Of a DNA stretch of 64,000 nt, positions 93 to 48,800 are shown in pieces. Both the position numbers and the translations under genes were made by a program. The notes under the pieces were generated by a model. The model was not told where the DNA came from, made no database searches, and saw only the letters and a list, made by a program, of their open reading frames with translations. Position 1 is the first letter of the stretch. Every line of letters starts with the position of its first letter. Origin of the DNA: Siphonodentalium dalli (taxonomy: Eukaryota; Mollusca; Scaphopoda; Gadilida; Siphonodentaliidae). The stretch is from assembly GCA_032622095.1 (NCBI GenBank), contig CP136062.1, positions 229,662,578-229,726,577 on the forward strand, given 5' to 3'.

Positions 93-320
93 GATGGCAA
101 AGCTAAAGGTGCTGTCAATGGGAAAGTAACATTCACCATCGATGTTCCATCTAAAATCACAAATGGATTTGTTGGAATTGGAACATCTAATTTTGGATTG
201 GCTGACTACGACAATCTAGAGATCCATTCATCGTCAACTGGAGAAGAAAAATTCAAACTGATGAGGAAAGAAGACAACAAACTGTACTTTGAACCATTCC
301 ATGTACACAACAGAAACTGA
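93..320 (+). CDS. Terminal exon of an upstream galactocerebrosidase (GALC) paralogue
   Basis: The exon opens after the acceptor ctttcttgcag and runs 75 codons to TGA at 318-320. The protein resembles the end of the GALC lectin domain: a VTFTIDVP strand, the GFVGIGTSNFGLADYDNLEI block (human GALC has a similar GWAAIGTHSFEFAQFDNF block, from memory), then a C-terminal tail of about 30 residues, rich in Lys, Glu and Phe, that the human enzyme lacks. GALC removes galactose from galactosylceramide and psychosine in lysosomes. Only this exon is in the window; the rest lies to the left. It cannot belong to the gene starting at 18697, which is downstream on the same strand and lacks its own terminal exon here. 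Both genes therefore form a head-to-tail tandem pair. The reading frame is intact, so I see no sign of decay. Confidence 0.85.
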   Translation, partial: DGKAKGAVNGKVTFTIDVPSKITNGFVGIGTSNFGLADYDNLEIHSSSTGEEKFKLMRKEDNKLYFEPFHVHNRN

Positions 321-18696: not shown

Positions 18697-18843
18697 ATGA
18701 CATCAAAACCTCACCATTTTACCTGTATTTTATGCAAATTATTTGTTATAATATTATATGCATCCGCAGACTTGTACTGGGTTGATGACAGTTCTGGTTA
18801 CGGCCGCGTTTTTGATGGAATTGGAGGAATTAGTGGTGGAGGG
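18697..18843 (+). CDS. GALC: GALC exon 1
   Basis: Residues 1-49. The ATG at 18697 is chosen because the frame upstream offers only GTG and the hydrophobic signal segment follows at once. Mature part [20 protein letters not shown] matches the GALC N-terminus. Donor GTAGGT, phase 0. Confidence 0.92.
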
Positions 18844-21800
18844 GTAGGTTATCACTATCAGGACACCAGCAGCAGTAATACACGTAGTAATATAGTATCA
18901 CTCAGGTTACCATTGGTTACTAGTAGAAGAAACTAAATGTTTTCCATATACCATAGTGTTAAAGTTTGACCAGGTACATGCTAATTAAGGGGGAGGCAAG
19001 TGACTGGGAAATTCCATGCAAATCTCTGCAGAAAAAGTTATATATGAAGCAGTTGTCTATGGGAGACCCTTTTCACATTTATTAATTATTTATGCTTAAG
19101 CGCATATATTTGAGCTTAAGCGCAAATAACCTCTATCATTTGCGCTTATGCGCAAATATTTACGCTTAAGCGTAAATAGATCATATTTGCGTTAAAGCGC
19201 AAATCATTTGCGCTTAAGCGCAAATAAAAATTAATATTCATTGATTCCCCTCTGAATTAATTTTAAATGGCACAGGCCTAAACACAGCACTCAAGTCTAT
19301 GTAGGCCCACCATATGAGGGAAGCAATCCCCCAGTAACCCCTAGATCCCTTTTATGACAATGGAAATGTTTTAGATCTGTGCAGGATATGTCTCATTTAT
19401 ATAATATACTAGATCTCTGGGATGGAGACACAAATTCTTGGGGACAAGGTGCTGATAATATGAAAATAGGGTTTTTTCCCTCTATTTCAAGTCAATAAGT
19501 ACACCATATGAGGGAATCAAGCCCCCGGTAACCGCTAATTCCCTTTTTATGGCCATGGAAATGGTATACTATATATCTGTGCAGGAGATGTCCCTTTAAT
19601 AAAATATACTTGAGCTCTGGGAGTGAGACACCAATTCTTGGGACACCAGGGACAGAGATGCTGATATGCATATGGAAATCTGTTCTTTCCTCAACTTCGA
19701 GTCTGTATGGGGCTATTACTATGGGCCCATAATAATATACTATGAGATGGACTCAATCATTCACAATCAGAGGGAAGTAAGGGAGTGTTAGGTACATGTA
19801 TTTGCACTTAAGCGCTTATATACACATATTTGCGCTTAAGTGCAAATGATTTACGCTTAAGCGCAAATAAATAATAAATGTGAAAAGGGCCTCCCATAGT
19901 TGTCTGGGCACTAAAGTAGACATGTCATTAAACAGACATAACATTTAACTGGTAGCTGCACTTATAAATTAATTTTGAGAATTTTTTACTGGAATTACAA
20001 CACTTGATCAAGTTTTTTAAAAATCACTGCTGAATATAAAATTTAAAAAAATACACCAACTTTCTAATGGAATATATTCCAAGCCAACCCGCCAGATAAA
20101 TATGTATTGTTTTCAATACCGCACAAAGTCACACCCAGAAATATTTGCAACTCTGTAACTTTTCTGTGGAGATTTCCATGGAAATGTCCACTCAAAATTG
20201 ATATATATATATTAATCTTCAGAGTAACCTTTAGAATAGATAGGAGCCATAATTGTTTTCTGAAATTAGTTAAAAAAACATGGCCTCCAGCAGATATTTT
20301 GGATTTCAAATTTTAATCTATCAGCACACACTGCAGCCAGCATTTATTGGATAATTGTTTTGAAAATAACACAGGCATGTTTGGAATGACATCTAGATGG
20401 GAATTAAAAGTTAAATTTGAACAATTTTGGATGTAAAAAATATGGCCGCTGGCAGCTATATTAGATTTTATTCTTTGCATGACAAAATCCTTTGACACAC
20501 CCTACAGATCACATCCCTCATTTGATTGTCACCAAACTGTATATGGATCTATTGGTGACCTCCAGATGCCAGCAGCCATCTTGGATTTTTCTCCTTATAT
20601 GACTAAATCCTTTGACACACCCAACAGATGACATCCCTTGCCCAATCTTCAGGAATCAGGATGATTATTAGATGGAAGTCATCAAATGTATCTGAATTTT
20701 GTTAAAAACATGGCTACAGCATCCATCTTTGATTTAACTCTTTGCATGACTAAATCCTTTGACAAACCCTACATATCACTTCCCCCATCCGATTGTCACC
20801 AACCTTCATATTAATATTCAGGGTGACCTCTTGATGGAGCTACATGTATCAATTGAAAAAACAAATTCATTGTAAAACATTGACGCCAACTTGGGAAGTT
20901 GGAACTTGTAGCCCTTAATTATACTGCCTGTGTATGCGTCTTGACTGTTATAATAAAACATCTTATGATACTTATCTTAAACTGTAAGTTAAAGGTACTC
21001 AATCCGAATTAACGATCCTAAATATGTAAAAAATATTGAATTCGAGTCAAAGCTCAGAGTGATCAGATATCGTTTTTTATTTCTCGAGATGTGCAATTTA
21101 ATGTGGCCCAGAAACACGTGGTCAAACGGATGGTCTCGTACAAAATTGCGGATGAAGATGAATAACTCTAAAATCAAGTTGTAATATGGCCAAATTTTGT
21201 GATACTTAAGTGATGATACGGCTATATGTTGTTGAACAAAATGTTGATAAATAACAAGTTTTGGGAAATTTTATACCATAGTTAACAGTGGTTAGCGTTA
21301 TTGATCTATTCTGATAACTAAAGCATATTTTGAATAAATGTTGTTGTTGTTTCTTGATGATATGGGGATCCTCTGATCTGATTGAGTACCTTTGAACATT
21401 TTATCTTTATACAGGGTTTTTTTTGTATTGTAGGCGACTTCCATCTTATCCTTATATTGGTTTTTTTTTGTATTGTAGGCGACTTCCATCTTATCTTTAT
21501 ACTGGTGTTTTTTTGTATTGTAGGCGACTTCCAAACTTTTGGTGAACTACCCAGTGAAGCAGAGGAATGAGATTCTCGACTATCTATTCAAGGTTTGTAA
21601 AAAGTTACAATCAACAGCTGCTTTGTACAGTAATGCCATAAATAATCGACTCCTTAACCACAGAAGAATTATGGGTAATTTTTCAGGATTTTGTTGGAAA
21701 TATGGCTTGTTGCCATTCATCGGAAAGCTCTCACTGAATATGAGAGAATAATGTTTGGGATATATGTAAAAAAACAACTTTTTTGCCAAATTTGGTTGCC

Positions 21801-24800
21801 ATGTTGGAAGCCATCTTGAGCAATTTGGTCTATAAACACCGTAGTGTGACACATTTAAGATATACCAAAACAATAAACACCGTTCATACCAAAGATAGTT
21901 ACGTTTTACTTGAAATAATGGTCCAAACTTGAAAAGTGAGTTTGTGAGAGAAAAATCCAATATTTCTGGTAATGTCAGTGGTGACAATAGTAACAATTAA
22001 CCGTGGTGCATCAGACGTTTAGTATTCAATGTATAGAAGGTAGAATAGCCCTTTTTATTACACACTTAGACGTGATTTATAAGGATTTCTTGGTGAGTTA
22101 AAAGTGATAATGTCACACCTGTGAATTACGTCACCTGTGAGAGCACGCGATTTTTGACAGTTCCGCTCTAAGCCAGAACTATTTTCACTTTCTGCGGCTC
22201 AAACATGGTTGAAGTTGAACAGAAACGAACAGCTAACGATGATGCAGAAGCAGTTAATAAACTGTTAAAATGAAGAAGAATCTCACCTATTATCGACTCC
22301 GATGATTCGGACGATGTCATATTCTGAATTTCCACGTATTGCTCTTCAAGAGTTTGTTTACGTCGATGATTAAAATATCGTCACTTCGAAACTTAGCTTT
22401 CTACTTTTAGCACGATTTCCAAACATTTCCTGTATGAACCAACATTATTTACACACACCATCAGAATCTTCACAATATCCCGTTCCAAGTGCCATGCTTG
22501 TTCGGTCAGAATAAACACAATTTTGACAGAAAATTTCCGAAACTTTAAAAAATGAATCGCACCAAATTGAATCAAATTATGAGGTCAATCGGTATCGTTA
22601 CATCACAATTATTTAAATTATGTGTCCATCCGCGTAACTGCACGCGCAACTGTACGTTGGGGTTCAAAATGGGAGAATCAGCTGATCTGGGCTTATTTTG
22701 TCACATCTTCTCTTTAGAATTAGTAACTTTTAGTGGTTGAAAGTGTGTAATAAACAGAATAATCAATTGGTCTCTATTTATTCATCAACCACAACTTGTA
22801 AGCGTTTGCAGGACACGCTGGGGCAATATCTACAATTTTCCATGTTTTGGTGGCCATTTTGGCAGCTATTTTGAGCCAAAGTAAAAATTTTGGTTCCAAT
22901 GAGTTGGAATATTCATAGGTAATGATATGCCTCACTTACATAACACATTTCTGTTCATTTCTTGTTGAAATGTGACTAGAATCCCAATTGTGATTTTTTG
23001 TGAAATTTTATGCCACATTCTGTAAAATTTATTTTTTGAGGGATCGGAAGGGGCTAGGACCTCAATAATTGCATATTTCATTGCTCCAATGATCAGTTTA
23101 TATAAAAAATACAATAAAAAGTCACATTTCTCAACCAGTTCCAAACAGCATAAACTGAACTAGAAGATATCAGTGAAAAAAAGTCATATTTTCAACTTCT
23201 GTTGGCCATTTTGGTGGCCATCTTGGATGTGGAGTTTCAATTTTGCCCTATAAAAGTGGAATTATGTCTTAGCTTCATGAAAATATATACATTTTACGAG
23301 ATTTTCACGCTATAATTTGCATCAAACTGACTTAGCCTAGTCTGAAAAACGGCGGCCATGATGGCCATCTCGTCTGGAGTCTGCACGGCCACTTTTTGTT
23401 CTTGTTAACATTGCTTAAAAATTGAAGGAGATAATAAGGAACAAAATGAGTGGAGTAAAGTTAAGTCCCAGGGGGTGGGGGGGGGGGGGGGTTGAAAGGG
23501 TACCCCTATTAGCTCCCGGACTATATTCCCCACATTATCTTTTCAACTTTATAAGGTTCTCTGTCAAAACTGCAAAAAGTTACTAGGTTTTGTACTGCTG
23601 AAATATGATTTCTAGAGATTCATGGCACGATATACCTCATCTCGTGTTTCCCCCCACGACATGTTCTGTATCAATCACCACTTTGCAATGAATTGTATGT
23701 TCCATCTCTTTAAATTTTTGTGTAAAACAACATTGATTACATATCAACTTGAGGTTCCTGGAGGTCTAATATTCAAGAAGATAAAATTTTCTTGCCAAAA
23801 ATAGAGTTTTGATAAATTGATATGTTCCTCGATTTTCTAGGATAGAATTAGGATTATGTTATTCTAACTGTATAAAATTGTTTTCTTTTCAGCCAAACTT
23901 TGGAGCTTCTTTGCAAATTTTGAAAATTGAAATTGGAGGAGATGCACAAAGCACAGGTAATACAGTTCTCCATCAAAACATCTATTTCTATATATTATAT
24001 TTATACGGCAATAATTCATATATTATATTTATACGGCAATAATTCATATATTATATTTATACGGCAATAATTCATCATAAATTTATGAATTTGACACATT
24101 TTGTAATTGTTTAAAGATGCATAATCCGAATTAATGCTCACAAATTTGGGGGTAAAAAATATTCGAGTCTAGGAACCTACCCATCAACGCTCAGAGTGAT
24201 GAGATATCAATTTTTTAAATCTATTATTTTTCTCCACCAATATTTTTAGTGGCCCAGTAAACAGTCCACAAGAAGACGGTCTCAGACCAAATTGTGGATG
24301 AAGATGGATAACTCTAAAATCAAGTGGCTTTTTGTGTGAGATATTTGACAAACCAGCAAAATTTTGTTGAACAAAATGTTGATAAATAACATATCATATC
24401 ATATAAATATGATAACCATGTACCGAGAACCATCCCACACATGTGAACCATTTATGAGAACCATCCTACACATTTATGAGAACCATATGAGAACCATCCT
24501 ACATATGAGAACCATAGCTCCCACACATGAGAAGGATGTAAGAACCATCACACATGAGAACCATCTATGAGAACCATCATACATATGAGAACCATATATG
24601 AGAACAACATGAGAACCATTTATGAGAACCATCCTACACATGAGAACCATACATCCCACTCATGAGAACCATGTAAGAACCATCACATACATGAGAACCA
24701 TATATGAGAACAACATGAGAACCATTTATGAGAATCATATGAGAATCATCCTACACATGAGAACCATACATCCCACTCATGAGAACCATGTAAGAAACAT

Positions 24801-27800: not shown

Positions 27801-30800
27801 CAGAACACCTGGCCGATATTACACATAACAGAGATACGCCGGTAGCATACCACTTCAATCTACCAGACCACGATACAAGTGACCTTCGACATCGGGTCAT
27901 TGAGATAATGAACTGTGACCCAGAGAGTGAATCGGGAAACCAACCCTGCAAAACGTGTGAAATCCACTGGATTTTCGCCCTCCAAACACTGACACCACTC
28001 GGTATGAACAGGAAGGACTTCTAGTCATATACCTTCAATTATTGCCTGACAATATTTACCTTGACCTTGTAAGCTAGGGTATTCTCTTATATAAGAGAAT
28101 GCACTGGCACAGGATCTTTAATGCTGCACCAGCACAGCTGCCGCCATGAAAGGGTTAACCATTAAACAGCACTTCCGTATGGAGCCTACATGAACCCAAG
28201 CATATGACAGTCATCAGTGCATTCTTCTCTCTGTATGAGGCTCCATAAAGGGTAAAATAACACTCCCGTATGGAGCCTCACATGAACCCAAGCAGACGAC
28301 AGTCATCAGTGCATTCTTCTCTCTGTATGAGGCTCAATAAAGGGTTATATAACACTCCCATATGGAGCCTCATATGAACCCAAGCAGATGACAGTCATTA
28401 GTGCATTCTTCTCTATGTATGAGGCTCCATAAAGGGTTAAATAACACTCCTGTATGGAGCCTCACACAAAACCAAGCAGAAGACAGTCATCAGTGCATTG
28501 TTCTCTCCGTCTGGGGCTCCATAAAGGGTTAAATAACACTCCCGTATGGAGCCTCACATGAACCCAAGCAGATGACAGTCATTAGTGCATTCTTCTCTCT
28601 GTATGAGGCTCAATAAAGGGTTATATAACACTCCCATATGGAGCCTCACATGAACCCAAGCAGACAACAGTCATCAGTGCATTCTTCTCTCTGTATGAGG
28701 CTCCATAAAGGGTCAAATAACACTCCCATATGGAGCCTCATATGAACCCAAGCAGATGACAGTCATTAGTGCATTCTTCTCTCTGTATGAGGCTCAATAA
28801 AGGGTTATATAACACTCCCATATGGAGCCTCACATGAACCCAAGCATATGACAGTCATCAGTGCATTCTTCTCTCTGTATGAGGCTCCATAAAGGGTCAA
28901 ATAACACTCCCATATGGAGCCTCATATGAACCCAAGCAGATGACAGTCATTAGTGCATTCTTCTCTCTGTATGAGGCTCAATAAAGGGTTATATAACACT
29001 CCCATATGGAGCCTCATATGAACCCAAGCAGATGACAGTCATTAGTGCATTCTTCTCTCTGTATGAGGCTCCATAAAGGGTTAAATAACACTCCTGTATG
29101 GAGCCTCACACAAAACCAAGCAGAAGACAGTCATCAGTGCATTGTTCTCTCCGTCTGGGGCTCCATAAAGGGTTAAATAACTCCCATATGGAGCCTCATA
29201 TGAACCCAAGCAGATGACAGTCATTAGGGCATTCTTCTCTCTGTATGAGGCTCAATAAAGGGTTATATAACACTCCCATATGGAGCCTCATATGAACCTA
29301 AGCAGATGACAGTCATTATAGTGCATTCTTCTCTCTGTATGAGGCTCCATAAAGGGTCAAATAACACTCCCGTATGGAGCCTCATATGAACCCAAGCAGA
29401 CGACAGTCATTAGTACATTCTTCTCTCTGTATGAGGCTCAATAAAGGGTTAAATAACACTCCTGTATGGAGCCTCACATGAACCCAAGCAGACGACAGTC
29501 ATTAGTGCATTCTTCTCTCTGTATGAGGCTCAATAAAGGGTTAAATAACACTCCTGTATGGAGCCTCATATGAACCCAAGCAGACGACAGTCATTAGTGC
29601 ATTCTTCTCTCTGTATGAGGCTCCATAAAGGGTTAAATAACACTCCCATATGGAGCCTCATATGAACCCAAGCAGACGACAGTCATTAGTGCATTCTTCT
29701 CTCTGTATGAGGCTCCATAAAGGGTTAAATAACACTCCCATATGGAGCCTCATATGAACCCAAGCAGATGACAGTTATCAGTGCATTCTTCTCCCTGTAT
29801 GAGGCTCCATAAAGGGTCAAATAACACTCCTGTATGGAGCCTCATATGAACCCAAGCAGACCAATCTCTACAAGAGCACACCAGTTATACTTCCTTTCTG
29901 ACTGTCACAGCTGGGTACAAGTCTGTGTTTCTATATTTAACATGAGGTTTTCCTGCAAAAATGGCGAAACCCTATCGCTCCAAAGTCAAATTTACTATGT
30001 GCTTTGAGAACAACTCCCGCACTAAAACATAATGACAGAATGGTAAATCAGAGTGGTAGTTTTGTTGACAATTTTCACAAGCTACTCGTCAAAATTGCAC
30101 AAATTAGAACTCTTGGGTTTGACTTGCTGTGCAAGTTGTGACAATGCCATACACGTGCATTTAGACTTCTGTGTTTTTTTCAATATTTTGTGTGCTTAAT
30201 AAGGGCAGCTTGTTGCTCTGTTCACTTAGTATATATCTTAATATCGCGGAATTCCACCAAAATGCCGCCGATAGCAGCAGTCTTACGAGTCATAAAGGGA
30301 GGTAAACCATGCATGGAGTTTGCAAGCAGACGACAGTCATCAGTACAATGTTCTCGCTGTCTGGGGCTCCATAAAGGGTTAAATATTTTCTTTAATTCTT
30401 TTTTTTAGATGGAACTGAAGCATCTCATATGCACGATCCATGGGATGAGAACTATCAACGAGGATACGAGTGGTGGCTGATGGTCGAAGCTAAAAAGGTT
30501 TCTATGATCCGTGGGGGGAGGGGGTGGTGAGATGAGAATTATCATCGCGGATATGAGTGGTGGCTGATGGTCGAACCTAAAGAAGTTTGTATGATCCGTG
30601 GGGGGGGGGGGGGGGAGTTGATGATCTGTTGGGGGGAGGGGGTGGTGAGATGAGAATTATCGCGGATATGAGTGGTGGCTGATGGTCGAACCTTAAGGGG
30701 TTTGTATGATCCGTGGGGGGGGGGGGGAATTGATGATCTGTGGGGGGAGGGGGTGGTGTTCATGGCTGAAGTGACTCATGGCAATCGATAAGCTACTGTA

Positions 30801-33800
30801 ATGACCGAAACTAAGAACTCTAGGAAAGCCATGAATTGGTGCCACTAGGTGCACTACCTTACTCGTAATTAAAATCGCTTTGTACTATTTTTCGCGCACC
30901 GATGGTTGTGCGAATTTAAAACTGAGTGAAAAATAGCTCGACTCTTGCCAACTCTCAGGGAAAATCAGCTGTGTTATTGAGTTACATGTACATACATTAT
31001 AGACAGTTGGACTTCGTATAGACAATTATATTGACATGTGAGAATGTGTTCTCAACACCATTATTCATATATATTATATCTCACGTGACTTTCTCGCATT
31101 CTGATTGGCTGCAAACTGCTATACTATTTTACGATAGTACCCCAGTAGGATTCCTACATGCCTACTATTCTTTTATTATTTATAGTAACAAATTCATTTC
31201 GCGAAATCGGGTTGCCGCCTGAAGATACGGCCAAACTTAAACTATACCTTGTACGATACTTGTTGAAATATTGGTATATCATTAGATTTATTGGTGAATT
31301 GTAATGATCTTACAAATGTCCGATCATAGCTAGCCAACGTATTTAATATAAGTTTGTCCATTTAGTTAGCAAGCGGCCAGTCCTAATTTTTTAATGACAG
31401 TGGACGTTATTTATAATTTCCTTTTCCGCTTTAATCGATGTTAAGCAAGTTATCTTCTAAAATTTCGGCAAAATGTTTTTGCTAATGACGTAATTATAGA
31501 AATAAATGCATGAATCATGAAGAGATGCTGTTAGATGTAACTAATGTATGCTCCCCTACCAACGTCAAAAGATTGCCGTAAATTGTAAAATCTGAGACCG
31601 ATTTCCAAAATTCAAGGCAAATAAAAATGTGACAAAATCAGACACAGAAATTGTGTGAGAATTTGCACCAATGTTCGATATAATATAATAAATAATGAAT
31701 GACTTGTCGTTGACTATGCCAAAATAGTGGTCCTCGATGAGGACCACTATTTTGGCATAGTCAACTCCAAGCCATTCATTATCTATATAATATAAAATCA
31801 TGGCAAAATCTTTGAAGTTGAAATTCTTGCAAGAAACACACATATTCCTGTACGAAGGGAACAAAAGTATAGCCTCATGTCCACCACCATGGAGTGACAA
31901 CATGGTTCTGAATCTGAGTTAAATATGTAAACCCAACTATTTGAAATACTCAGTCACATGTTGATTTTCTCTCAAGTCTGCCACCTACTTGGTTGTTTTA
32001 CAGCCACAGTAATGCCCTACGTAATCGACTCTTTAACCACAGCAGAATTATGCATAACTTTTCAGGATTTAGGGGAGAGCTTTCCGATGAATGGCAACAA
32101 GCCATATTTCCGACTAAATCCTGAAAAGTTACCCATAATTCTGCTGTGGTTAAGGAGTCGATTAATTAGAGCATTACTGTACTTCTTTAAAGTTCTTTTC
32201 ATTGACGTTCATAACTATATATTTGAGTGTCAGAATGATTATTTTGAGAATATAACGTTTTGCAACATTTTCTAATGTGAAAAAAGCCAAGATACCAGAA
32301 TGTGAAGTACTTTCAGAAAGGTAATTCTCGCATATATAAGAGAATGCATTGGGACAGGGTCTTTAATGTTGCACCAGCGCATCTCCCATCATGAATGGGT
32401 TAACAAATTCAGATTTCACACTCTGTTTCTTGTGGACTAATGTCATTTAAAGACATATTATGGACTTGTTTGAGTGCAATAAACTTTTAGTTAGTACTCG
32501 TGCGCTATGCCAACCTGGGGAATGTAGCATTCTACTAACATCGCCGAAAAATTCAAAGAAATCGATCGTACCACTCCATAGAAATCATCGTCAGAACTAC
32601 TCTCAATTGTAAATATTTACACCTCAATTCAGGATGCAACAATCAGCGACAAACTAACAAAAACGATTTCGCCATCCAGAGTCATTGCATTTAATTAATA
32701 TATAAGAATGACTGTGTGCGTGTTGTCAATTTTCATTATTATTCATAAGAATAACTACTTTGAGCAAGAATATTCTCCATTTCTATTTGAACACCCTACC
32801 GGAGTGTTTCACATCACTTTAACAGAATTTTTATTATTGAAAGGTGTTGATAGCATATAATGATGATAAGTATAATGAAAATCCTGTCCCAATGCATTCT
32901 CTTATATATGCGAGTCGACCATAGGTCAATTCACATATATAAGAGAATGCATTGACCTAAAAAAATTATATTATTTTTTATAATTGTTAAAAAATGTAAG
33001 AAAAAATGATAAAAAATGATAAAATTGTTAAAGGATGTAAAAATAATTATAAAAATAATAAAACTGTTAAAGAATATAAGAAAAAAATGAATATTTTTTT
33101 TATAGAATGTAAGAAAAATTTAGAAAAAAAATGATAAAATTTGTTAAATAATTTAAGAAAAAATGATAACAAATTGTTAAACAATGTAAGAAAAATTTAT
33201 AAAAAACAAAATGTTCAAAAAAATTGTTAGGCCATGCATTCTCTATATAGGTCGCCTCGCATATGTAAGAGAATGCATTGGCACAGGGTCTTAAATGTTG
33301 CACCAGCACAGCTCCCGTCATGAAATGGTTAAGAAATTCAGATTTCACGCACTGTTTCTCATGGACTAATGTCATTTATAATTTATATCATTGAAAGGTG
33401 TTGATAGCGTATAATGATGATGAGTATAATGTTTGTACAGTTAACCGATAAATGTAATTTAAATTGAATTGTTAATGCATACGTTTGTACAGTTAACCGA
33501 TAAATGTAATTTAAATTGAATTCATAATGCATACGTTTGTACAGTTAACCGATAAATGTAATTTAAATTGAATTCATAATGCATACGTTTGTACAGTTAA
33601 CCGATAAATGTAATTTAAATTGAATTCATAATGCATACGTTTGTACAGTTAACCGATAAATGTAATTTAAATTGAATTCATAATGCATACGTTTGTACAG
33701 TTAACCGATAAATGTAATTTAAATTGAATTCATAATGCATATGTTTGTACTTTCAGAGAAATACAAATATCAAGCTATATGCTCTGCCTTGGGCGTTCCC

Positions 33801-36800
33801 CGGTTGGCTTGGTAACGGAACAAGAAATCCATTCACTAATCTACAGATGACGGCTCTATATGTTGTGAAATTTATCATTGGAGCGAAAACTCACTATAAC
33901 CTTACTATGGATTATGTCGGGGTGAGATACAGTAATGCCCTAAGTAATCGACCTCTTAACCAAAGCAGAATTATGGGTAACTTTTCAGAATTTAGTCGGA
34001 AATATGGCTTGTTGCCATTCATCGGAAAGCTCTCGGCGAGAGCTTTCCGATGAATGGCAACAAGCCATATTTCCGACTAAATCCTGAAAAGTTACCCATA
34101 ATTCTGCTTTGTTTAAGAGGTCGATTACATAGGGCATTACTGTAATTTATTACACATTTTACCTAGGCAATCAGCAATGGTTAATTTATTTTTTTACTTT
34201 AAGTTATTACTTTGATTATATTTAATTGATTATATGATTATACTCACCAGAACTGTTATGTTTCATGGATTGTCCATGAGATTCCCGGATAGTCACAGCA
34301 ATTTCGCAAATACGGATAACCCCCAATTTCTCCCGGATTCAGCAAAACCTCGCATTCAAAATCCAAAAAAACGATGTTTATTCGTGCATTTGCTGGGTTT
34401 TCCCCCATGACAGTGATTTCCTTATTTCCAGTACCGCAAATACCCACACATTAACATTCACATAATGTACCATCGGTAACTTTTGATGTTCCCTCTGATT
34501 GAAGACTGATCAGTGGTGAACTGTGACTGATATTAATTGATTTTCGCACTCTGGTGAAGCCACACATATAAGGGTGTTATAGTACATGTATATAATACGT
34601 ACAATCACCAGTGTGCAGCTGTATTGTAAGGCCCCATTGATGAACATTTCTATTCTAAGTGATGGATACTTTATGATTTAAGCTGATTAGTGGTATGCAT
34701 TGCGAACGGAATGTGTCCATTTCGTTGGCATGTAAAACTGTAAGATGGGTAATTTTGTACATGTCCTTTTGTAACTCGGGTTTGTTTTTACTTATTTTAA
34801 ATGAAGTTCTCCTTCGTAAATGGGTGGCCGAGTTTAAATATTATTGTAAATAAATAGTTGTCGTCATAATTGACCATTATTTTGCCATAACTAGCGATAG
34901 TAAAATTATATTTTTTTTATGCCGATCTGTTTATTTCTTGATTGTGTTGTGAGTTGTCATTTATTATGTTGTTCCGTACACCATATAGAAGACTCATGAG
35001 TCCTTAACCCTTTGAGTGCCAGGGGCCGATCTCAACGGCCCTAAACCTACAAAATAAGTCTGTTAAAGAATATAAGAATAAATTATTAAAATTGTAAAAA
35101 AAAATAAAAAAAAATAAATTGTTAGGCCAATGCATTCTCTTATATATGCGAGGCGACCTATGGTCGACTCGCATATGTAAGAGAATGCATTGGCACAGGG
35201 TATATGGGTTGATACAAAAATCGGACCTGGCACTCAAGGGTTAATGATTATTGGAGGGGAGTGTTTTACTATTTAGTTTTGAGAATTGTGTTTCTGATGA
35301 AATGTTTTATGTCCAATTTCAGCTCTGGAATGAAAAGAATTATAATATAACTTACATCAAAGTAAGTATAATTATGTGTAACCATAGTGTATTATTCTCT
35401 AACCAATAGGATACATCAGAGTTAAAGACCCATGGTTGTTTCAAGCCTCAGATTGTACAGTAATGCCCTAAATAATCAACTCTTTAACCACAGCAGAATT
35501 ATGGGTAATTTTTCAAGATTTAGTCGGAAATATGGCTTGTTGCCATTCATCGGAAAGCTCTCAGTGAGAGCTTTCCGATGAATGGCAACAAGCCATATTT
35601 CCGACTAAATCCTGAAAAATTACCCATAATTCTGCTGTGGTTAAGGAATCGATTATTTAGGGCATTATTGTATCTCAAGTCCAAGTAACAGTCGATAAAT
35701 GTGTTAAATAGAGGATCAATAATGAGTTGCAATTCTAACAAAATTTATTAACAGAGTGCATTAGGTTCGAGCCGAGCTTTAGCGAGGCTCAAATAGAAAA
35801 TAGTGTATGAGGTTAATAAATTTTGTTTAGAATTGCGAAGAATTTCAGATCCTTTTTATCACATAATCTCATTTTGGCAACGAAAAACAATTTCGAAACG
35901 GCTGGGGTTAAACAAAATTAATATTGAATTCCTTATCTCAACCAAAGATTCTAATTAACATAATAATAACGATTCCATTACGCTAAGTTCTTATGTCACT
36001 GCGCATGCTGATAATACACTTGTGTCTTACTAAAAAATATGAGGCCGGGTTTAGGGGCTAATTATATGATATATACTTTCATATGGACTTCTACTGGTAT
36101 GCCACATCAAACCTGATAACCCTTTACCCAACAAACCGGCCAAAAATGGCCAAATAAAGCTGCAACAGCCTAAATTATCTTGGGTCTGTCTCAATAAAAC
36201 CATACAAATATGGATATCATTGGAACCGGCTCATTTAGTCACTAAATCCTTCGGCACACCATACAGGCCACATCTCTCATCCGATCATCACCAAACTTCA
36301 TATGGATTTTTGGGCCGACCCCTAGTTTACTTTTCTTCTTTATCATTTTATTCATTGCTCAACAAAAAATTAACTCCTTCCCAAGTTGTGCTACAGTGTC
36401 ATTGACACTTTCATTTAATGATATAATAGGGGTTTCATGCGATCTAGATAGACATGTTTAATCATCCAACCATGGTATATAGTACAAAGAATAAAAAACA
36501 GAATGGCAATAAACAATACCTATATCCATAGCCATGCGCGGAGAAGTGGAGTCTTGATTCATTTTTACTGCATTGTGTGTTTGGAGTCGCACTGGCTTAC
36601 TTTGTAATTAGAGTCTATTTCTCCTTCTGGAGACCCACTAGTCAGTGTAGGATTTGACAAAATAGTGTATGCAAACATATGACATAGCCGATTGACAGGT
36701 TGAATGCTGTCAAAGGAAAGATTTTGTATACCCCCCGCAACGAAGTTAGGGGGGTATACTGGAATCAGCTCATCCGTCCTTCCGTCCGTCGTACCATGGA

Positions 36801-39800
36801 CACAAATTTGTCCGGAGTTTTTCTCAGTCGTTTTTTTATCAATTTCCGTGAAACTTGGCACAGACATCAACCACCATAGGAAACTGTGCACCTGCGATTA
36901 TGACGTCTGTCGGTCTTTCTTTGGTGGAGTTATCCCCCCTTTTTCGACTTAGAATTTTTTTGCAACATGCATAATTTTGTCCTAGCTTTTATTCCTACAT
37001 TTTTAGGTCAATGTTTTTTAATCTTGGCACTGATATTTAGTACCATGGGAACCTGTGCACCTGCGATTATGATGTCTGTCTGACTTTTTTTTGTGGAGTT
37101 ATTCCCCTTGTCCGAGCTTTTGTTACTACATTTTTCGGTCAATAGGTTTAAGATTAGGTTTAGGGTTGTGCACCTACAATGGGAACTGTTATTTTATTAT
37201 TTTAACTAAATGTTTACTGACATGTGAAACATCTTAGTATTTTAAAAACACGGGGGGTATCCTTAGTCCCATTGGGACAGTCACACCTCTAGTTATTTTT
37301 GTGACTTGCTCAATCAGCAGAATCCGGTAGCTTGCTATGCTCTTCCGGGGAGATCACGCTCCAATCTGGTCTGTGCACATTTGCAGTAAAAAAATGACAT
37401 CTTTTGTGTAACTTCTTGTTTTAATTATATGTTTATGACATCATAACTCTTTGCTTACAGACTTTGAGGCAGACACTGGATGCATACAATTTACAGCATG
37501 TTCAGGTTGTAGCCGCGGATAACAATTGGGATATTGCTAAAGACATATTAAAAGATGTAGCGTTGGCAAATGCAGTCGGCATTATTGGGTTAGTATCGTA
37601 AGGCAAATAACCATCGACAATTTTGATAATATGAGTCTTATGCATTCTTATGAAGAGAGTTAAAGGTACTCAATCCGATTCGATGGTCCCCATATCATCA
37701 GTTTCCAACAACAACAAATTTTTTGAAATGCCTTTTCAGTTGTCAGAATCGATTATTTGCCCAAAAATAATGCTAACCACAGTCCACTATAGTATAAAAT
37801 TGCCAAAAACCTGTTATTTATCAAGATTTTGTACAACGAAATTTTGCCGGTTTGTCAAATATCTGAAACAAAAAAGCCACTTGATTTTAGAGTTATCCAT
37901 CTTCATCCGCTATTTGGTCTTGTCATCGACTTTTATTGGGCCACTAAATATTCCAGGTGGTGAAAAATAATAGATTTGAAAAATCAATATCTGATCACTC
38001 TGAGCTTTGATGGATGGGTTCCTCGACTCGAATCAAATATTTTTTACCCCCGAAGCCAAATAAATAGTTATTGAGGGGTGCTTAATCGGATTGAGTACCT
38101 TTAACGACAACAATTTAAATGTCAGAGAAAAAAAAGCTTGAGATATTGAGGAAACTTCCTCGTTCGATCTGAATGAAGACAGATAATTTTTTGACAGAAT
38201 TTCAACAGACCACCAAGCCTGCAAATAGCGTGTCTGTCATTTGCAAAATGAGGTCCCCAGAGGGTGAATTTAGTGACGCTATCCCGCATAGCGGGCTAGC
38301 ATAACTAAATTCACCCTCTGGGGACCTCATTCTGCTTAGGCCCTCAACTGCTATGGTAGACCTAGGATCAAATTGAAGTTCACCCGTTGAAGTTGGTGAT
38401 GTTCACCCATTGGGGACCTCGATTATGGATTATTATCTTCTGCAAATTAGGGGATATAGAAACTTCCCAGAAAGAAAAACGTAACTAAAAACAATGTTAA
38501 TTTGATACTATAGATACTTACCAGAAGCTGAGGCCTAAGCAGAATGAGGTCTCCAGAGGGTGAATTTGGTGATGCTAGCCCACTGTGCGGGATATCATCA
38601 CTAAATTCACCCTCTGGGGACCTCATTCTGCAAATGACAGACACGCTATTTGCAGGCTTGCAGACCACTGTTCATAGAAGAGAAGATCCCAGGCATTTTG
38701 CAGCATTCAACCAAGTCTGAGTTTAGTGTGCCTGTCATTTGCAGAATGAGGTCCCCAGAGGGTGAATTTAGTGACACTTTTCTGCATAGTGGGCTAGCAT
38801 CACCAAATTCACCCTCTGGAGACCTCAATCTGCATTGCCTCATCTGCTATGGGAGACATAGACTCAGATTTAAGTTCCCAAATGGTGAATATTGTGATGT
38901 ACACCCATTGGGAACCTCGATTATGCAATGTGTTGTCTGCCAAATTGGGAAAAAAGAGAAACTAAACTAAAAAATAGTTTAGTGTACCTCTCATTTGCAG
39001 AACTCAGGCCCCTCCAGAGGGTTAATCAGCTTAATCTTAATCTAGCCGGCTAGCATCACAAAATTCACCCTCTGTAGACGTCATATAAAAAAATTCAATA
39101 ATAAAAATTGTTAAAGAATGTAAGTTAAAATTGCTAAAGAATGTGTAAGAAAAAATTATCAAAAATGATAAAATTGTTAAAGAATATAAGAAAAAATGAT
39201 AAAAATTGTTATAGAGTTTAGAAAAAAATATCAAAAATGATAAAAATTGTTAAAGAATGTAAGAAAAAAATAATAAAAATTTATTAAAATTGTTCAAGAA
39301 TGTAAGAAAAATTGAAAGAAATTGTTTAGCCAAAGCATTCTCTTATATATGCGAGGCGAGCTATGGTCGACTTGCATATATAAGAGAATGCATTGGCACA
39401 GGTAGGGCGTTTTCATTTCGTATTGAATCTCGAATCAGGCAAACGATTCAAAATCGAATCGAATCTCGAATCGAATCATTGTTACTGAGCCAATCTAGTT
39501 CAAATACATAGATCGTCGAATAAACACCTGAAATTGCCTGGCGAAAACCGAATGGTGATCATTGATGTAGTGCAATATGCACCTACAACAAATGTCTATG
39601 CATTTTCTGTGCCTCAGGAATCGTTGAGTACAGATACAAAGAGCATACATAAATGGGAGAACGAATGTCAACGTAAATAGGGACAAGTGTACCGGGTGAT
39701 GCCTGTTTTATTTCGTTGAATAGCGCAGTATTATTCACTACATATATTACACTTGCGATGATTGTGTTGTCTGTCGCTTGAAGTTGAACTGAGAGACTTA

Positions 39801-42800
39801 TCGGATAATGTTTACAAAAATACTCAGAACTTAGATTCAGATTCGTATTGACTCAAATCAAACAAAGATCTTAAATCTGGTATACATGTGTGTTATGAAA
39901 TAATAGAATGTCCAATGATTCTCGGAATGACACTAGCACACAGCCTTGTATGACAATTTTGTTGTTCACTTATGTCTCTCTTACAGATTGAGTCAATTAG
40001 TTATATATCAGTTGAGAAATAACTCTTGTGTCAATTAAGGTTTATATGCATTATAACCGAAAAGTTTGAAGATAAATTATATAACTGGCGTAGCAATTTC
40101 ACAAGAGAACCACCATAACCACAGAAGGCATAAGTATAAAAGAAGCGTAAAACTTTGAGATTTATATTGCGGTCGAAAAAGACACACACCAAAGTTGAAA
40201 TTGATATGAATGTCAATCAGACATCCAATTATCAGTGATCAAGTGGTATCATGAATTCGTCTCTTTTGATTGGCTAGTGAACTGTGTACATGCATTGATC
40301 AACTGATCGATCCACTGTCGCAGCAGGTATTCCAGAAATATTTTGCATGTACTGTGACACGAGTTGTTACTTTCTGAAACCATATTTCTTTGCAAATGTT
40401 AGCTCGATCGAGTCTTGTTGATTTTTCTAGGTACTTATGCACCTAAATATTCATGGGTAATTGGCAGTAACTGTAATGGCAGAGCAGTACTACCTGAGGA
40501 ATTTGTATGAAGCATCGGAATCCCCGTTTATATAAAAAAATATCGAATAGTTTCCACGTACATTTTAGGTACGCGGTATATAGGTGTGGTCATATGGCAC
40601 GATGCTGCTATGAGTGCTGTCATTTCAATAGCAGAAGTAATCAAGAAATTTAGGTTATCGAGAAATAACTTTAATGTCTAAATAAAAATGTGGATTGACA
40701 GCTTAATGATTAAATTGTTTGGCGATAACATGTCCTGTCATCGGACATAACGGTGCGTGCGTACGTTTAAGTCTTTTACTACGTTATTATAGTGAAATTT
40801 CTTTTCTGGTAAGAGCATTGTGGTCTGTAGAAAGCAAGGAAATGCACCTGTCACCAAACATTCGACGAACTCCGAATCATGGTAGCCAATTTCGAATCGA
40901 ATCGAATCAGACAAACGATTTCGAATCACATCAAATCGAATCAATTCACAGGGCCCTAGGCATGGTCGACTTGCATATATAAGAGAATGCATTGGCACAG
41001 GGTGTTTAATGTTGCGCCAGCGCAGCTCCAGTCATGAATCTTATTTGCAGTGCACATTACCCCGGTACACTGACGACAACTGATGCCATTAACACTGGTA
41101 AACCACTGTGGGCGTCGGAGGATTATAGCACATGATTCTTATTTGCAGTGCACATTACCCCGGTACACTGACGACAACTGATGCCATTAACACTGGTAAA
41201 CCACTGTGGGCGTCGGAGGATTATAGCACATGATTCTTATTTGCAGTGCACATTACCCCGGTACACTGACGACAACTGATGCCATTAACACTGGTAAACC
41301 ACTGTGGGCATCGGAGGACTATAGCACATGATTCTTATTTGCAGTGCACATTACCCCGGTACACTGACGACGACTGATGCCATTAAAACTGGTAAACCGC
41401 TGTGGGCATCGGAGGATTATAGCACATTTAATGATAATGTTGGAGCCGGCTGTTGGGCTAGGGTTTGTATATAAATTATTATAAATATATTATGGCATCT
41501 GACACATGATGACTATCAGATATATGACCATCATTATTACTCAATATTTATGAAAAATCCACACCAGTCTCATACTCTCACCACTATCCATGCTCCCTCT
41601 TCTCTTCCTGTTTCTCCTCCACTATCTCTTCTCTTCTCGTTTCTCCCCACTATCACTCTCTGTTTTATTTCTCTCCCTCCTGCTATCCCGGACACTATCT
41701 TCCTTCTTCTTTTTATGCGCCCGTTTGAAAAACGTTCGTATTACGTAAATGGGTTGTCCGTCCATCCATTGTCCGTCCGTCCGCTTTTGGTTTCCGGATG
41801 ATAACTTTAGATTGAATCGAGTGAACTGAACCAAAGTTGGTATGTTAGTTTACCACACCAAAATACAGATCAAGTTGGAATATGGGTTTCGTCCGCATCA
41901 TTTTGACTGAGTTATGCCCCTTTTTTTACTTCGATTTTACCTGATTTGCGGTTTCCGGATGATAACTTTAGATTGAATCAAGTGAACTGAACCAAATTTG
42001 GTATATTATGGCCCTTTTTCGACTTAGAAACCTGTCAATTTCTAGTTTCCGGATGATAACTTTGGTTTGTGTGATCATATCTGAATCAAATTTAGAATGT
42101 TAGTTTATCAGCCCAAAATACAGGTCAGGTTCGAATATGGGTTTGCTCTGCCCATTTTTGTGAGACTTATGGCCCTTTTACGACTTAGAATCCTGTCAAT
42201 TTCTGGTTTCCGGATGATAACTTTAGCTTGTGTGATCATATCTGAATCAAATTTGGTATATGAGTTTATCAGCTCGAAATACAGATCAAGTTCGAATATG
42301 GGTACGATCCACCCATTGTGTTCTGAAATTTAGTATCAGATTTAGGGTCCTTGTTATTTTGTTCAGAAAAGCTGATGCCCCCGATGAAGCCACTTTTTCG
42401 GGGGACACTGTGGCCGGACGGGCTTTTATTCGACTTAGATTTTACCTGATTGTGTTTTATTTTTGTTATTATTTCATCTTAAGTCAAAAGTTTCAAACAA
42501 ATGAATTAAACCTTGCCCCACTCTACTCTAGAAATGGGCGTATTATGCCACGCCCCGATGGCGTGCTCTTGTTAGATGATGCTATGAATCTCTACTCTGG
42601 CTAATGCCCGTAGAGATCATATTCCACCAGTTCAAAACCTTGGAACATTTTGAAGTTTTGACAGGGAACCTTCTAAAGTCGAAAAAATAACTCGTGGGAA
42701 CATATTTCTTAGTTATTATCTGTTCCTTAATAATTTACTTCACTGTAGGTGAATGTCCCAATTCAAAGTGGCATGCTTTTCCGAGTTATTTGTGAGCCGA

Positions 42801-45800
42801 TATTGCAATAAACAATGAATTAATTAACCATTGGTTAATTATTTCTTGCAATTATGAGAACAGGCTTGTACAGCATATACTTATTCTCCCTGATTGCTTA
42901 ATGTGGTTTTATTCTGCTTTTCTTTACAGATTTTGAATCAGAATTACGTAAATGGATCCATGACAAGGTGAGTGTGACAAGACTGAGTTTAGTGTGCCTG
43001 TGAGACAAGACTGAGTTTAGTGTGCCTGTCATTGCAGAATGAGGTTCAGATAGCAAAACCTGTGTTTGTCCCTGATATTCAACTTGTCATTTATAGTATA
43101 GTAATGCCCTAAATAATTGACTCTTTAACCACAGCAGAATTATGGGTAACTTTTCAGGATTTAGTCGGAAATATGGCTTGTTGCCATTCATCGGAAAGCT
43201 CTCACTGAGAGCTTTCCGATGAATGGCAACAAGCCATATTTCCATCTAAATCCTGAAAAATTAAGTTGTGGTTATTGAGTCGATTATTTAAGGCATTACT
43301 GTATTCACAAAATTCAAGTCGATAAACGCTGAGCCCAAAAATTTTGAAATGTGCCCAAAATAAACATGAGAATGGAATTTTTTTCATTTGCAGAATGAGG
43401 TCCCCAGCGGGTGATGCTATCCCACTGTGCGGGCTTGCATCACCAAATTCAACGTTTAGGGACCTCATTCTGGTGGCCTCATTTACTGTGGGAGACAAAG
43501 ACTCAGATTGAAGTTTCCAAATGGCGAATATTGTGATGTACACCCATTTAGAACCTCGATTATGCAATGTGTCGTCTGCCAATTTGGGGATGTATAGAAA
43601 CTGAACTAAAAAAGATATAGAATCTATGCGAAGAAGTTTCTATAGAAATTTGATAATAAAGAAACGTTCTGAAGATGAGGCATAAGAAGAATGAGGTCTG
43701 TAGGGGGTGAATTTAGTGATGCTAGCCCACTATGCAGGATAGCGTCACTAAATTCACCCTCTGGGGACCTTATTCTGCAAAGACAGGGACACTAAACTCA
43801 GGCTTGATTACATAGCTATGTTTATTTACTGTAAAAGTACATTTATTCGTGGCGTTCAATTTTTGTGGTTGTTGATAACCACGTAATTAAAAACCCCGCG
43901 AAAAAATATTATCTTTGAAACTATCGCGGTGGCCATTTTGAGAATGTCATGCGGGAGGTACATGTAACTCTATTGACCCAATGTACATTCAGATCCTAGG
44001 GAGTTATGTTATGAGAAGAGAGTGACTTTCACCTAGGTTATGTAGGTTTATGTAATACAATCCCTTTGTTAACATTCTCAATAGTCGTCAACAAGAGCTT
44101 GGACACACGACATGCTAATTAATTATACTACAGTGCGGATGCGCAATTTACGACGGATCGCTGAGGTAACTGCACTTCTATTAGTTGGACTTGATTGTTA
44201 TTATTGGGGGTTTGGAGGCGACAGTTAGTACTGGTGGACCCACGAATTTACGAACCCACAAAATTGTCCTAAATGGCTGAACCACAAAAATTGATACCAA
44301 CGAATTTAAAGCCATTCACAGTACCAAGAAACACGGAAATGTCAAATTTTTATTGATATCAATGAAAATTTATCCTGAAAACGATCATTCTCAGAAAATG
44401 GATTTTCAACAATTTCCACGTTTTTTGGTCTCAATTTCGATACTATGGTTTGCCCTGATGTGCCCAAATAATCTAAGGCTTCTGATTGGTCATAACAGGT
44501 AGGTTTTTTTTTGTCTCTTACAGCACGATATCATTGAATCTGATAGCCAGATATTATTCAGCGCTTCTCTTTTATGTTTGCTCTGTCTATTACAGCATGA
44601 TATCATTGAATTGATAGCCTGATATTATTCCGCGCTCCCGTATTATGATTCTCTGTCTATTACAGCTCAATATGGAATCTGATAGCCCGATATTATTCCT
44701 CGCTCCTGTATTATGATTTCTCTGTCTATTACAGCACAATAGCATGGAATCTGATAGCGAGTTACTATTCCGCGCTCCCGTATGCTCGAGATGGATTAAT
44801 GACCGCAGAGGAGCCATGGAGTGGGAATTATGTTGTCGAATCTCCCATCTGGATCACTGGTCAGTGTTATAACTACTACCAAGCCTGATTATAGCGTGTC
44901 TGTCATTGGCAGAATAAGCTCACCAGAGGGTGAATTTAGTGATGCTGTCCTGTATAGTGGGCTAGCATCACTAAGTTCACCCTCAGGGGACCTCATTCTG
45001 CTTAGACCTTATCTTTTCTGGAAAGTTTCTTTATTATAATTTCTATAGAAACTCGGATTCGATTTCTTTTTTGGTTCAGTTTCTCTATATCCCCAAATTG
45101 GCAGAAAACACATTGCATAATCGAGGTTCCCAATGGGTGTACATCACAACATTCACCATTTGGGAACTTCAATCTGAGTGTATGTCTCGCATAGCAGATG
45201 AGGCTATGCAGAATGACGTCCCAGAGGTTGAATTTGGTGATCCTAGCCCCGCTAAATTCACCCTCTGGGGACCTCATTCTGCAAATGACAACAATGGCTA
45301 CTTTTTAGTCGAGTTTTTTTCCAAAACTCGACTTATAGTTTGATGAGGGACGGTGGGCGGGCGGGCGGCGTGTTTTGCTTATAACTCAACCGTTTATTGA
45401 TGGACAATACGCACATTTATTACAGAGTTATGGCCCTTTGCCATTTTTCACTGATTTTAGGCTCGTTAGCGCAACAACATCAACAAACGTTATCTGATTC
45501 GATTGAAATTTGGGATATAGGTGTCTCCCAAGAATATCTCGGTCGAGTTCGAAAACCGGCCAGGTCCGATAAAATTTGATAGAGTTATGGCCCTTAATTA
45601 GTCATTTTTCACGAATTTTCAGCTCGTTAGCGTGATAACTTCAACAAACGTTATCCGATTTGATTGAAATTTGGTATATAGGTGTCTCCCAAGAATATTT
45701 CGGTCGAGTTCGAAAACCGGCCAGCTCCGATAAAATTTGATAGAGTTATGGCCCTTAATTAGTCATTTTTTTCACAAATTTTCAGCTCGTTAGCGCGATA

Positions 45801-48800
45801 ATTTAACAAACATCATCCTATTTGATTGAAATTTTGATATATAGGTGTCTCCCATGAATACCTCGGACGAGTTAGAAAACCGGCCTAGTCCGATAAAATT
45901 TGATAGAGTTATGGTCCTTAAGTAGTCATTTTGTACGAATTTTGAGCTCGTTAGCGCGATAACTTCAACAAACGTCATCCGATTCAACTAAAATGTGGTA
46001 TATAAGTGTCTTCCAATAATATCCTGGACGAGTTCGAAAACCAGCCCGGTCCGATAAAATTTGATAGAGTTATGGTCCTTAACCCTTTGGCGAGTAGAAC
46101 GACATATATGTCGTCTATCGGTTGAGGAGTAGAACGACATATATGTCGTTTCAGGAAGTGTTATTTTACGTAGACATATCTTCAATAAATCATCTGATTT
46201 TTAAATGATTTGTATAGGAGTTATTTTGATTAATATAATGTCCCAAATGTATAAGTGCAATCGATTATGATAACACACGTTAACAAAAATTGTACATAAA
46301 TTAAAACGAATTATTGGACCTTTTTTATCCGAACTTGTTAATAATTATTGCTATGACGTTGACGTTAAATTTACTCATGACGTGATGTATATTTCGTTAC
46401 AGATACTCTCCAAAGGGTTAAGTAGTCATTTTGTACGAATTTTGAGCTTGTTAGCGCGATAACTTCAACAAACGTCATCCGATTCAACTAAAATTTGGTA
46501 TATAAGTGTCTTCCAATAATATCCTGGACGAGTTCGAAAACCAGCCTGGCCCAATAAAATTTGATAAGAGTTATGGCCCTTAATTAGTCATTTTTCGTGA
46601 ATTTTTAGCTTGTTAGCGCTATAACTTCAACAAACGTACTCCGATTTGTTTAAAATTTGGAATAGACATACTTGCCAAGAATATTTCGGACGAGTTCGAA
46701 AACCAGCCTGGCCCGATAAAATTTGATAGAGTTATGGCCCTTAATTAGTCATTTTTCGTGAATTTTTAGCTCGTTAGCGCGATGTGTGACTTGCTTCGCG
46801 CAATATCTCGAAAGAGTGCGAAAACCGGGTTTCTCCGAACTTTTTCCCCTGAGTTATACCCCTTAGTTTGTGAATTCTTCGCGATTTTGAAGCTGTTAGT
46901 GCGATAACTTAACAAATATTAACCGATTTTACCTATTAATTAGTCTACCGATACTGATGCACACCAACTTAACAAATATTAACCGATTTTACCTATTAAT
47001 TAGTCTACCGATACTGATGCACACCAATTGGCGGTAGCCACCGGCGGTAAGCCACCGAAAACGAGACACATCATCTCTGATGCCACCTCTTGTTTCTTAT
47101 TACAGCACACACTACCCAGTTCACAGACATCGGCTGGAAATATTTATCGTCAGATCACGGTGTCGTTACACTTCTCCACGGAGGCAGTATGGTTACTCTG
47201 GTCAGCCCAGATAAAAAAGATATTGCCATCGTCATAGAAACCATGGTATACTATCTAATAACTAATCTTATAGTCAGTCCACATAAAAGAGATATAACTA
47301 TCGTCATAGAAACCATGGTATACTATCTAATAACTAATCTTATAGTCAGTCCACATAAAAGAGATATAACTATCGTCATAGAAACCATGGTATACTATCT
47401 AATAACTATTCTTATAGTCAGTCCATATAAAAGAGATATAACCATCGTCATAGAAACCATGGTATACTATCTAATAACTATTCTTATAGTCAGTCCACAT
47501 AAAAGAGATATAACCATCGTTATAGAAACCATGGTATAATATGCCCAGATCAAATAGATATCAAATTCACCATAGAAACCATTGTAAAAAAATATTATCA
47601 TCGTGATAGAAACCATGATATTCTATCTGTGACAACTCCTCATGTAGTCAGCCTGGATAAGAAATAATATTACCATCGTCATAGAAACCATGGTATAGTA
47701 TTGCGATATGCTCTTTGAGTAGTCTGCTCAGAAAGTCACTCATGTTGTCAGATGTAGGGCCCTGCGAATAATCAAATTGATTCAGTCTCCTGAATCAAAT
47801 AAATTGTTTTTGATTTTCGGTTGTCAGAGTTTCGATTCGATTCACAGTATTTGATATCTACCATGAACTCTGTCTGGTAATTATTTCACAAAGAGAAACT
47901 GGAGAATTCAAATGCGCATTTGAGGCTTTGAAGTTCTTGCGAAATAACCTTTAAGTCAATATTAAAATTATAAATATATAATTGTAAATATTGTTAGGCC
48001 AAGGGTTTTCGCAAAATTTTAGGAAGCTCCAGTTATGAAAACATTAAAAATAACATAAAAAAAATTTCTTTACCTAAATGGCATCCACAATTTTCAATCT
48101 TCGTGTGATGATTATTTCCCGTTTTGTTTCAGTCTCATAACCATTCAGAGTGTATACGGCCGTTCTTACCAGAATATTCTGTTAAACCACAGAACATCAC
48201 CATAAGGCTCGGTGGATCCTTCGTAAGTTTTAAGTTATCCATAAAATGCAAGTTTAAAACTATATAGAGGATCTACAACCAGGCCCCAAGCTAGAAGGCG
48301 ACTGAGGCAAAGTTTTCGCCTTCAAGCCGGCGACTTCGCCCTCGGATGTCCGCAAGGTGAAAACGAAGTCGCCTTCCAAATTTGACAAAACTAGCTTGGG
48401 ATTTACGGTAATTTTAACTGTTCTAACAAGTCATTTTTAATTATAAATTGTATATTGTGTTCTGTATCCAGATATTCTAATCATATTGAGTGCTTTTGGA
48501 AACGGCAAATTGCAACGAAGTTTATGATGAGCTACTAGCTGCACGTTAGTTGTTACTTCGTTCCGTCCGGTCATTTTGTAACCGCAAATTGTATAGCCAT
48601 GCATGGTCACCACCAAACATGCAGTAGCCAATATAAACAAAGCATGCTGTCTTTTTAATGTCTATGCATTTAAACTCTAAAAATATCCATGAATTTTTAA
48701 TTTTAAGAAAAGTAGTTTGTGTCAGACTCCGTTTTCCAATCCAACTTTTTTACTTTTTGGAGTTGCAGATTTATTATGCACATGCTTGTTTACTATTAAA

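Follow-up and report, generated by a model that had tools for sequence, protein, structure and literature searches.

How the splice junctions of one gene come to lie so often within tandem repeats is the question raised by a stretch of 64,000 nucleotides from the scaphopod Siphonodentalium dalli (assembly GCA_032622095.1, contig CP136062.1, positions 229,662,578 to 229,726,577, forward strand; the window in the following), which carries a gene for galactocerebrosidase (GALC). At five junctions of this gene, those of exons 2, 4, 8, 10, and 11, the repeat unit itself contains the splice junction. The first-pass annotation of this DNA had placed six junctions inside arrays; five of them stood, but the array before exon 5 extends to 33750 and stops 6 bp ahead of the junction at 33756, which lies in no unit. 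The tally for the window is five spanning arrays and two abutting ones (exons 5 and 9):

21397..21533, plus strand: three 45-bp units at the exon 2 acceptor, each unit comprising the acceptor and approximately 9 exon bases
30444..30758, plus strand: three copies of the end of exon 4 and its donor, 87 and 115 bp apart
33431..33750, plus strand: 52-bp array before exon 5, abutting and not spanning the junction
41033..41427, plus strand: four 98-bp units at the exon 8 acceptor
42972..43029, plus strand: 28-bp pair with its first base 5 bp past the exon 9 donor, a weaker, seventh case
44512..44783, plus strand: four units of 69-72 bp at the exon 10 acceptor
47201..47542, plus strand: five 72-bp units at the exon 11 donor, with older, decayed copies to approximately 47692

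Short tandem repeats that span splice junctions look several times more common at exon edges than in neighboring intron. Spanning units measured 21-138 bp across the GALC copies of this genome and a sample of kinesin and myosin exons.

Whether five junctions exceed chance depends on what is counted as an event. Tandem repeats were detected with Tandem Repeats Finder (TRF) at one setting (score 50, period of at least 20). An array of n copies goes back to one duplicated unit that was then expanded, so that the chance of including a junction scales with the length of the unit and not with that of the array. Extra copies of one array inflate base coverage, and we therefore judged base overlap to be the wrong null; the overlap of arrays with junctions was rejected as a test, since copies in one array are not separate events. 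When each array was represented by one unit, 1.44 spanning arrays were expected in the window gene and 5 observed (P = 0.016; observed/expected 3.5), a modest excess over the event-based null for this gene alone. The assembly searched (2.23 Gb in nine contigs of 190-301 Mb, the window being on contig 2) contains at least five GALC genes on contig 2, namely the window gene and copies A, B, C, and D, of which C and D were examined as far as exon 10. Expected and observed counts were 0.80 and 4 for A, 0.89 and 4 for B, 1.02 and 3 for C, and 0.89 and 2 for D; because the copies are related, the sum of 18 against 5.0 expected is not a test. For the window gene and copy B together, without the exon 11 array that they share, 8 spanning arrays were found against 2.33 expected (P = 0.003). 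A distance profile over 128 junctions of all five copies, again with each array collapsed to one unit, showed that units cover 16.4% of the last 10 exon bases and 14.5% of the first 10 intron bases, after which coverage falls to 12.7% at 10-49 bp, 7.6% at 50-149 bp, and 4.7% at 150-399 bp into the intron, and stands at 3.6% at 400-999 bp and 3.7% at 1-5 kb.

The first-pass annotation had proposed that the count be repeated in other multi-exon genes, and in kinesin and myosin exons an excess is indeed present. The kinesin family was picked before any of its sequence had been seen. Of 123 kinesin matches, 70 were used, in the order of their E-values and passing over segmental copies that were nearly identical and open frames of very great length, and 10 of 85 myosin matches were picked for their distinct places. 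The sample outside GALC is thus composed of 80 exons from two motor-protein families in one assembly: 60 kinesin exons with both edges and a further 20 (10 kinesin, 10 myosin) represented by their donor sides. The motif model by which junctions were called had been built from 64 donors and 64 acceptors of GALC, which are mutually related. In the 60 kinesin exons, units cover 5.5-6.1% of bases within 10 bp of a junction and 1.6% of those at a distance of 10-49 bp; the values for 50-149 bp and 150-280 bp are 0.8% and 1.8%, respectively. The script called 6 spanned junctions, all donors, among the 110 that remained after 10 of 120 with weak motif scores had been dropped. For the pooled count, all 120 kinesin junctions and the 20 additional donors were kept, with the donor positions in L040 and L086 reassigned by eye. 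Here, 9 of 19 arrays span a donor (the six called by the script as well as L106, L040, and L086) and none an acceptor. Random placement predicts 2.33 spanning arrays (P = 0.0002; observed/expected 3.9), or 2.79 if wholly exonic placements are barred (P = 0.0005). Donors outside GALC are spanned more often than acceptors (9/80 versus 0/60, P = 0.010), and head-to-tail repeats of exon end and donor are plain by eye, e.g., in L077, L083, and L090. The junction excess therefore holds, in a small sample, in genes unrelated to the original finding. Two side observations were made in these families: L075, a kinesin exon with a donor array, also carries a 69-bp array (106-307) that ends exactly at the acceptor and resembles that of GALC exon 5, and contig 4 (274.2-275.5 Mb) has a cluster, in both orientations, of eleven close matches to one and the same part of the myosin-head profile.

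We lean toward the explanation that short tandem duplication is frequent in this genome, is favored near exon ends, and is filtered by selection, with the junction arrays belonging to the class of minisatellites described from lancelets as mirages. Minisatellites would arise by repeated short tandem duplication, here of a unit that contains the splice junction, and such duplication would start or expand more readily in the DNA of exon ends than in that of introns. Duplications wholly within an exon would break the protein and be lost, while those crossing an edge would survive, since one exon would remain complete together with its splice site and the spare copies would fall in the intron. Splicing would then proceed by position, the site adjoining the complete exon being used. 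Spare acceptors lie upstream and would be met first, and should consequently be less tolerated than spare donors, which would explain the donor bias outside GALC. We favor a duplication process whose activity is higher at or within exon ends, where the exon, the junction, and the first part of the intron fit alike as its seat; the arguments for such a process are that young arrays are among those spanning junctions and that the copies show no extra conservation as splice sites. The more far-reaching version, in which exon ends, and donors above all, are a mutational hot spot that multiplies junctions several-fold over the intronic rate throughout the genome, is put forward tentatively, as a possibility that we would not yet back. 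The cause of such a hot spot could be transcription, RNA-DNA hybrids at 5' splice sites, or chromatin.

Several observations weigh against a process tied to exon ends. Tandem arrays make up 21.9% of the body of the window gene, so that random placement by bases covers 5.75 of 32 junctions, and 5 are covered (P = 0.69), i.e., there is no excess under a base-coverage null. In each of the five GALC copies, local self-similarity likewise covers a smaller share of the junctions than of the gene as a whole (observed versus expected, with the exon sets then mapped: 5/32 vs 9.9, 5/30 vs 7.3, 5/24 vs 6.3, 3/18 vs 7.8, and 2/16 vs 5.3). Should dispersed repeats reduce the usable intron by half, twice as many spanning arrays would be expected in the window gene (P = 0.16), and the window gene and copy B together would give 8 against 4.66 (P = 0.10). 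Furthermore, the placement null takes exon ends and introns to be alike in base composition. In the motor-protein sample, which is small with its 19 arrays, the donors of L040 and L086 were re-placed after the arrays had been seen, and 7 of 19 arrays span a donor without both (P = 0.005 and 0.015); the last 20 donors added (10 kinesin, 10 myosin) include only 1 that is spanned. Finally, the distinct GALC arrays are divided into 5 at acceptors and 4 at donors, which the argument from acceptor intolerance does not predict.

The first two of these observations are those that chance would produce, with a genome rich in tandem repeats striking some junctions and exon edges being nothing special. 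The permutation of repeats over junctions that had been proposed with the first-pass annotation, run on the GALC copies, accordingly yielded no excess, and the claim that the matches go beyond chance holds when counted per unit, in the window gene and in the motor-protein sample alike, but not when counted by bases. We nevertheless consider chance an unlikely explanation, as the coverage is inflated by extra copies, the ratios per unit are 3.5 and 3.9 in two independent sets, and kinesin coverage drops within 10-49 bp of the junction.

Survivorship is a second alternative: duplication may be uniform, with exon-side DNA being older and less broken by mobile elements or deletions, so that arrays last longer there. 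At least 27% of the body of the window gene has 6 or more dispersed matches within the 274 kb compared, coverage in GALC declines over hundreds of bp, and the exon 4 array is old, being present in all five copies, all of which is consistent with this explanation. However, coverage in kinesins is already down at 10-49 bp from the junction, and in five spanning kinesin arrays (L060, L075, L077, L083, and L090) the units are 92-99% alike, too young for differential loss. The excess is therefore not only due to longer survival of old arrays, and the present data lean toward young arrays alone showing it. We regard survivorship as a rather improbable account of the excess.

It seems very unlikely to us that selection retains the spare sites as back-up or decoy donors or for the choice of isoforms. 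Across the five GALC genes, 48 of the 51 spare donors of exon 4 have GT; donors 2-5 of exon 11 keep the frame without a stop, each adding a 24-residue repeat; and the nearest spare acceptor of exon 10 is open over its 69 nt. However, use of 11 of the 16 spare sites in the window gene would introduce one stop or more, and the splice dinucleotides in the copies are not conserved beyond the level of the flanking bases (donors 170/180, 0.944, versus 0.916; acceptors 28/30, 0.933, versus 0.896), so that no sign of selection on the copies as splice sites was found in this count, which excluded the donor arrays of exon 8 and to which neither L040 nor the arrays of exon 2 contributed a copy that could be scored. 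Along the exon 4 copies, positions of about -30 to +10 are best kept, a profile that is biased because copies were picked via matches through the junction. Motif scores at least as high as that of the authentic site were obtained for 25 of the 32 spare sites scored; among the remaining seven is a site in L060 that was read out of register by 2 bp. As most spare motifs are as strong as the authentic ones, splicing, if it takes place at the authentic site, must choose largely by position. The first-pass annotation had also seen a sign of selection in the intact copy always being on the side that keeps splicing workable, a point that falls away, since a duplication spanning an acceptor leaves the exon body on the 3'-most copy and one spanning a donor leaves it on the 5'-most copy, without any need for selection.

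Collapsed or stuttered repeats in the assembly are a highly improbable source of the arrays, which are common to paralogs and yet diverged, with unit lengths that differ at the same junction.

The comparison of the GALC copies bears on the age and independence of the arrays. Copy A lies just upstream of the window gene, its last (C-terminal) GALC exon being window positions 108-233; in 15 exons that were compared, the two genes share 90-100% identity. A lone match to a single GALC exon apart from the five copies was found on contig 2 (194203470-194203562, minus strand). Beyond the 5 of the window gene, the four paralogs show 13 further cases of an array spanning a junction, and array copy number varies among them. 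Grouped by hand, the spanning arrays of the five genes reduce to nine distinct ones, five at acceptors (exon 2, exon 8, exon 10, and two at exon 14) and four at donors (exons 4, 6, 8, and 11). The first-pass annotation had taken the arrays of the window gene for independent events. This is borne out for the array at the exon 8 acceptor, which was found in the window gene alone and is therefore young, the acceptor being single in copy A. The remaining arrays are shared, those of exons 2 and 10 with copy A, that of exon 11 with A, where it consists of decayed copies, and B, and that of exon 4 with all four other copies. The presence of the exon 4 donor array in all five genes suggests that it is probably ancestral to them. 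Including the authentic donor, it has 3 copies in the window gene, 11 in A, 3 in B, 11 in C, and 28 in D. In copy D (exon 4 donor at D 6948; L024-L026), the 28 copies of exon 4 end and donor extend over 15 kb of intron 4, and 27 of them have GT. Arrays absent from the window gene include a 21-bp array at the exon 8 donor, common to B, C, and D; a 62-bp unit in the same three copies, which consists of the whole 39-bp exon 6 and its donor and is repeated without the acceptor; and arrays at the exon 14 acceptor, with 66-bp units in A and 90-bp units in B. A repeat of the exon 12 donor in copy B, 618 bp away, has lost its GT and was left out of the count. Exon 11 is 94% identical between copy B and the window gene (window 47102-47701; B 39823-40370), far more than the matched parts of exons 10 and 12 (77% and 69%), and is therefore probably a gene-conversion tract that brought the donor array along.

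Although the first-pass annotation had regarded the phenomenon as new in kind, the junction arrays, as judged from their sequence, are of a known kind, now seen in another phylum. In the accessible parts of two reports (PMC3087553, PMC3902484), lancelet mirages are described as minisatellites over exon-intron boundaries in Adh3, troponin C, the globins BflGb6 and BflGb9, and PGBD5; they seem not to disturb splicing, and for one globin gene the copy number varies among haplotypes. As in the arrays described here (at 5 junctions in the window, in 13 spans in the paralogs, and at 9 donors in 80 other exons), the unit of a mirage holds the junction. Its size is also similar (10-160 bp, compared to 21-138 bp here), and both kinds of array lie 5' or 3' of exons, have AG or GT in many copies, and show homogenization within the array. 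In contrast to what these parts report for lancelets, the present cases come from another animal group, affect several junctions of one gene family, are accompanied by a measured excess over the intron background, and in the kinesin and myosin sample are restricted to donors. Conversely, splicing and allele-length data accompany the lancelet mirages, whereas the present arrays are known from the sequence of a single assembly. A genome-wide count of junction-spanning arrays against the intron background was not found in the literature, in a search that fell short of most subscription papers, and the same search yielded no printed account of the excess measured here or of a bias toward donors as seen outside GALC.

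Two further systems show similarities, as far as the accessible portions of their descriptions go. In human segmental duplications, minisatellites at exon-intron boundaries alter gene structure (PMC2812944), and units of minisatellite size at the boundaries of recent paralogs are common to both cases; however, coding exons contain half of the human repeats, and the boundary repeats reportedly give rise to novel introns, whereas in S. dalli the copies occupy introns that already exist. Tandem genomic duplication that leads to intron gain (PMC4974935, PMC2891723, PMC3087553) also creates spare splice sites. Here, in contrast, no new intron was recognized, the exons of the paralogs being at the same protein positions: the spare copies are within introns beside exons common to the paralogs, and no extra exon was recognized in the genomic sequence of this one species. 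Should the excess prove to be genome-wide, it would point to a mutation process tied to gene structure, supply raw material for new exons, isoforms, and introns, provide a natural test of site choice among several equal splice sites in a row, and imply that mirages are not an oddity of lancelets.

The GALC gene was mapped to 16 exons in the window, each preceded by AG and followed by GT:

18770..18843, plus strand: exon 1, the first recognized (tblastn with GALC, AG/GT)
21524..21592, plus strand: exon 2
23893..23956, plus strand: exon 3
30409..30497, plus strand: exon 4
33757..33921, plus strand: exon 5
35323..35361, plus strand: exon 6, single in the window gene
37461..37588, plus strand: exon 7
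41345..41462, plus strand: exon 8
42930..42967, plus strand: exon 9
44735..44859, plus strand: exon 10
47106..47245, plus strand: exon 11
48133..48222, plus strand: exon 12
51839..51928, plus strand: exon 13
53588..53729, plus strand: exon 14, single in the window gene
61481..61655, plus strand: exon 15
62508..62677, plus strand: exon 16

The joined reading frame is open through the authentic sites, as determined with an exon 14 that was five codons shorter than in the final map, and no final GALC exon or exons were recognized within the 64-kb window. From these coordinates, exons account for 3.9% of the gene body (1716/43908 bp), in agreement with the approximately 4% given earlier. Among the best 120 of 3307 matches, the nearest proteins are mollusc galactocerebrosidases (Haliotis asinina, 74%; Babylonia areolata, 72%), with brachiopod and annelid galactocerebrosidases at 68-69%. 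An Rfam search of the window gave 0 matches at gathering score. Intron 3 contains a strand-asymmetric ATGAGAACCAT array of 2.5 kb (window 24407-26879), with a GC skew of -0.25 and an AT skew of +0.29 in the 4-kb bin.

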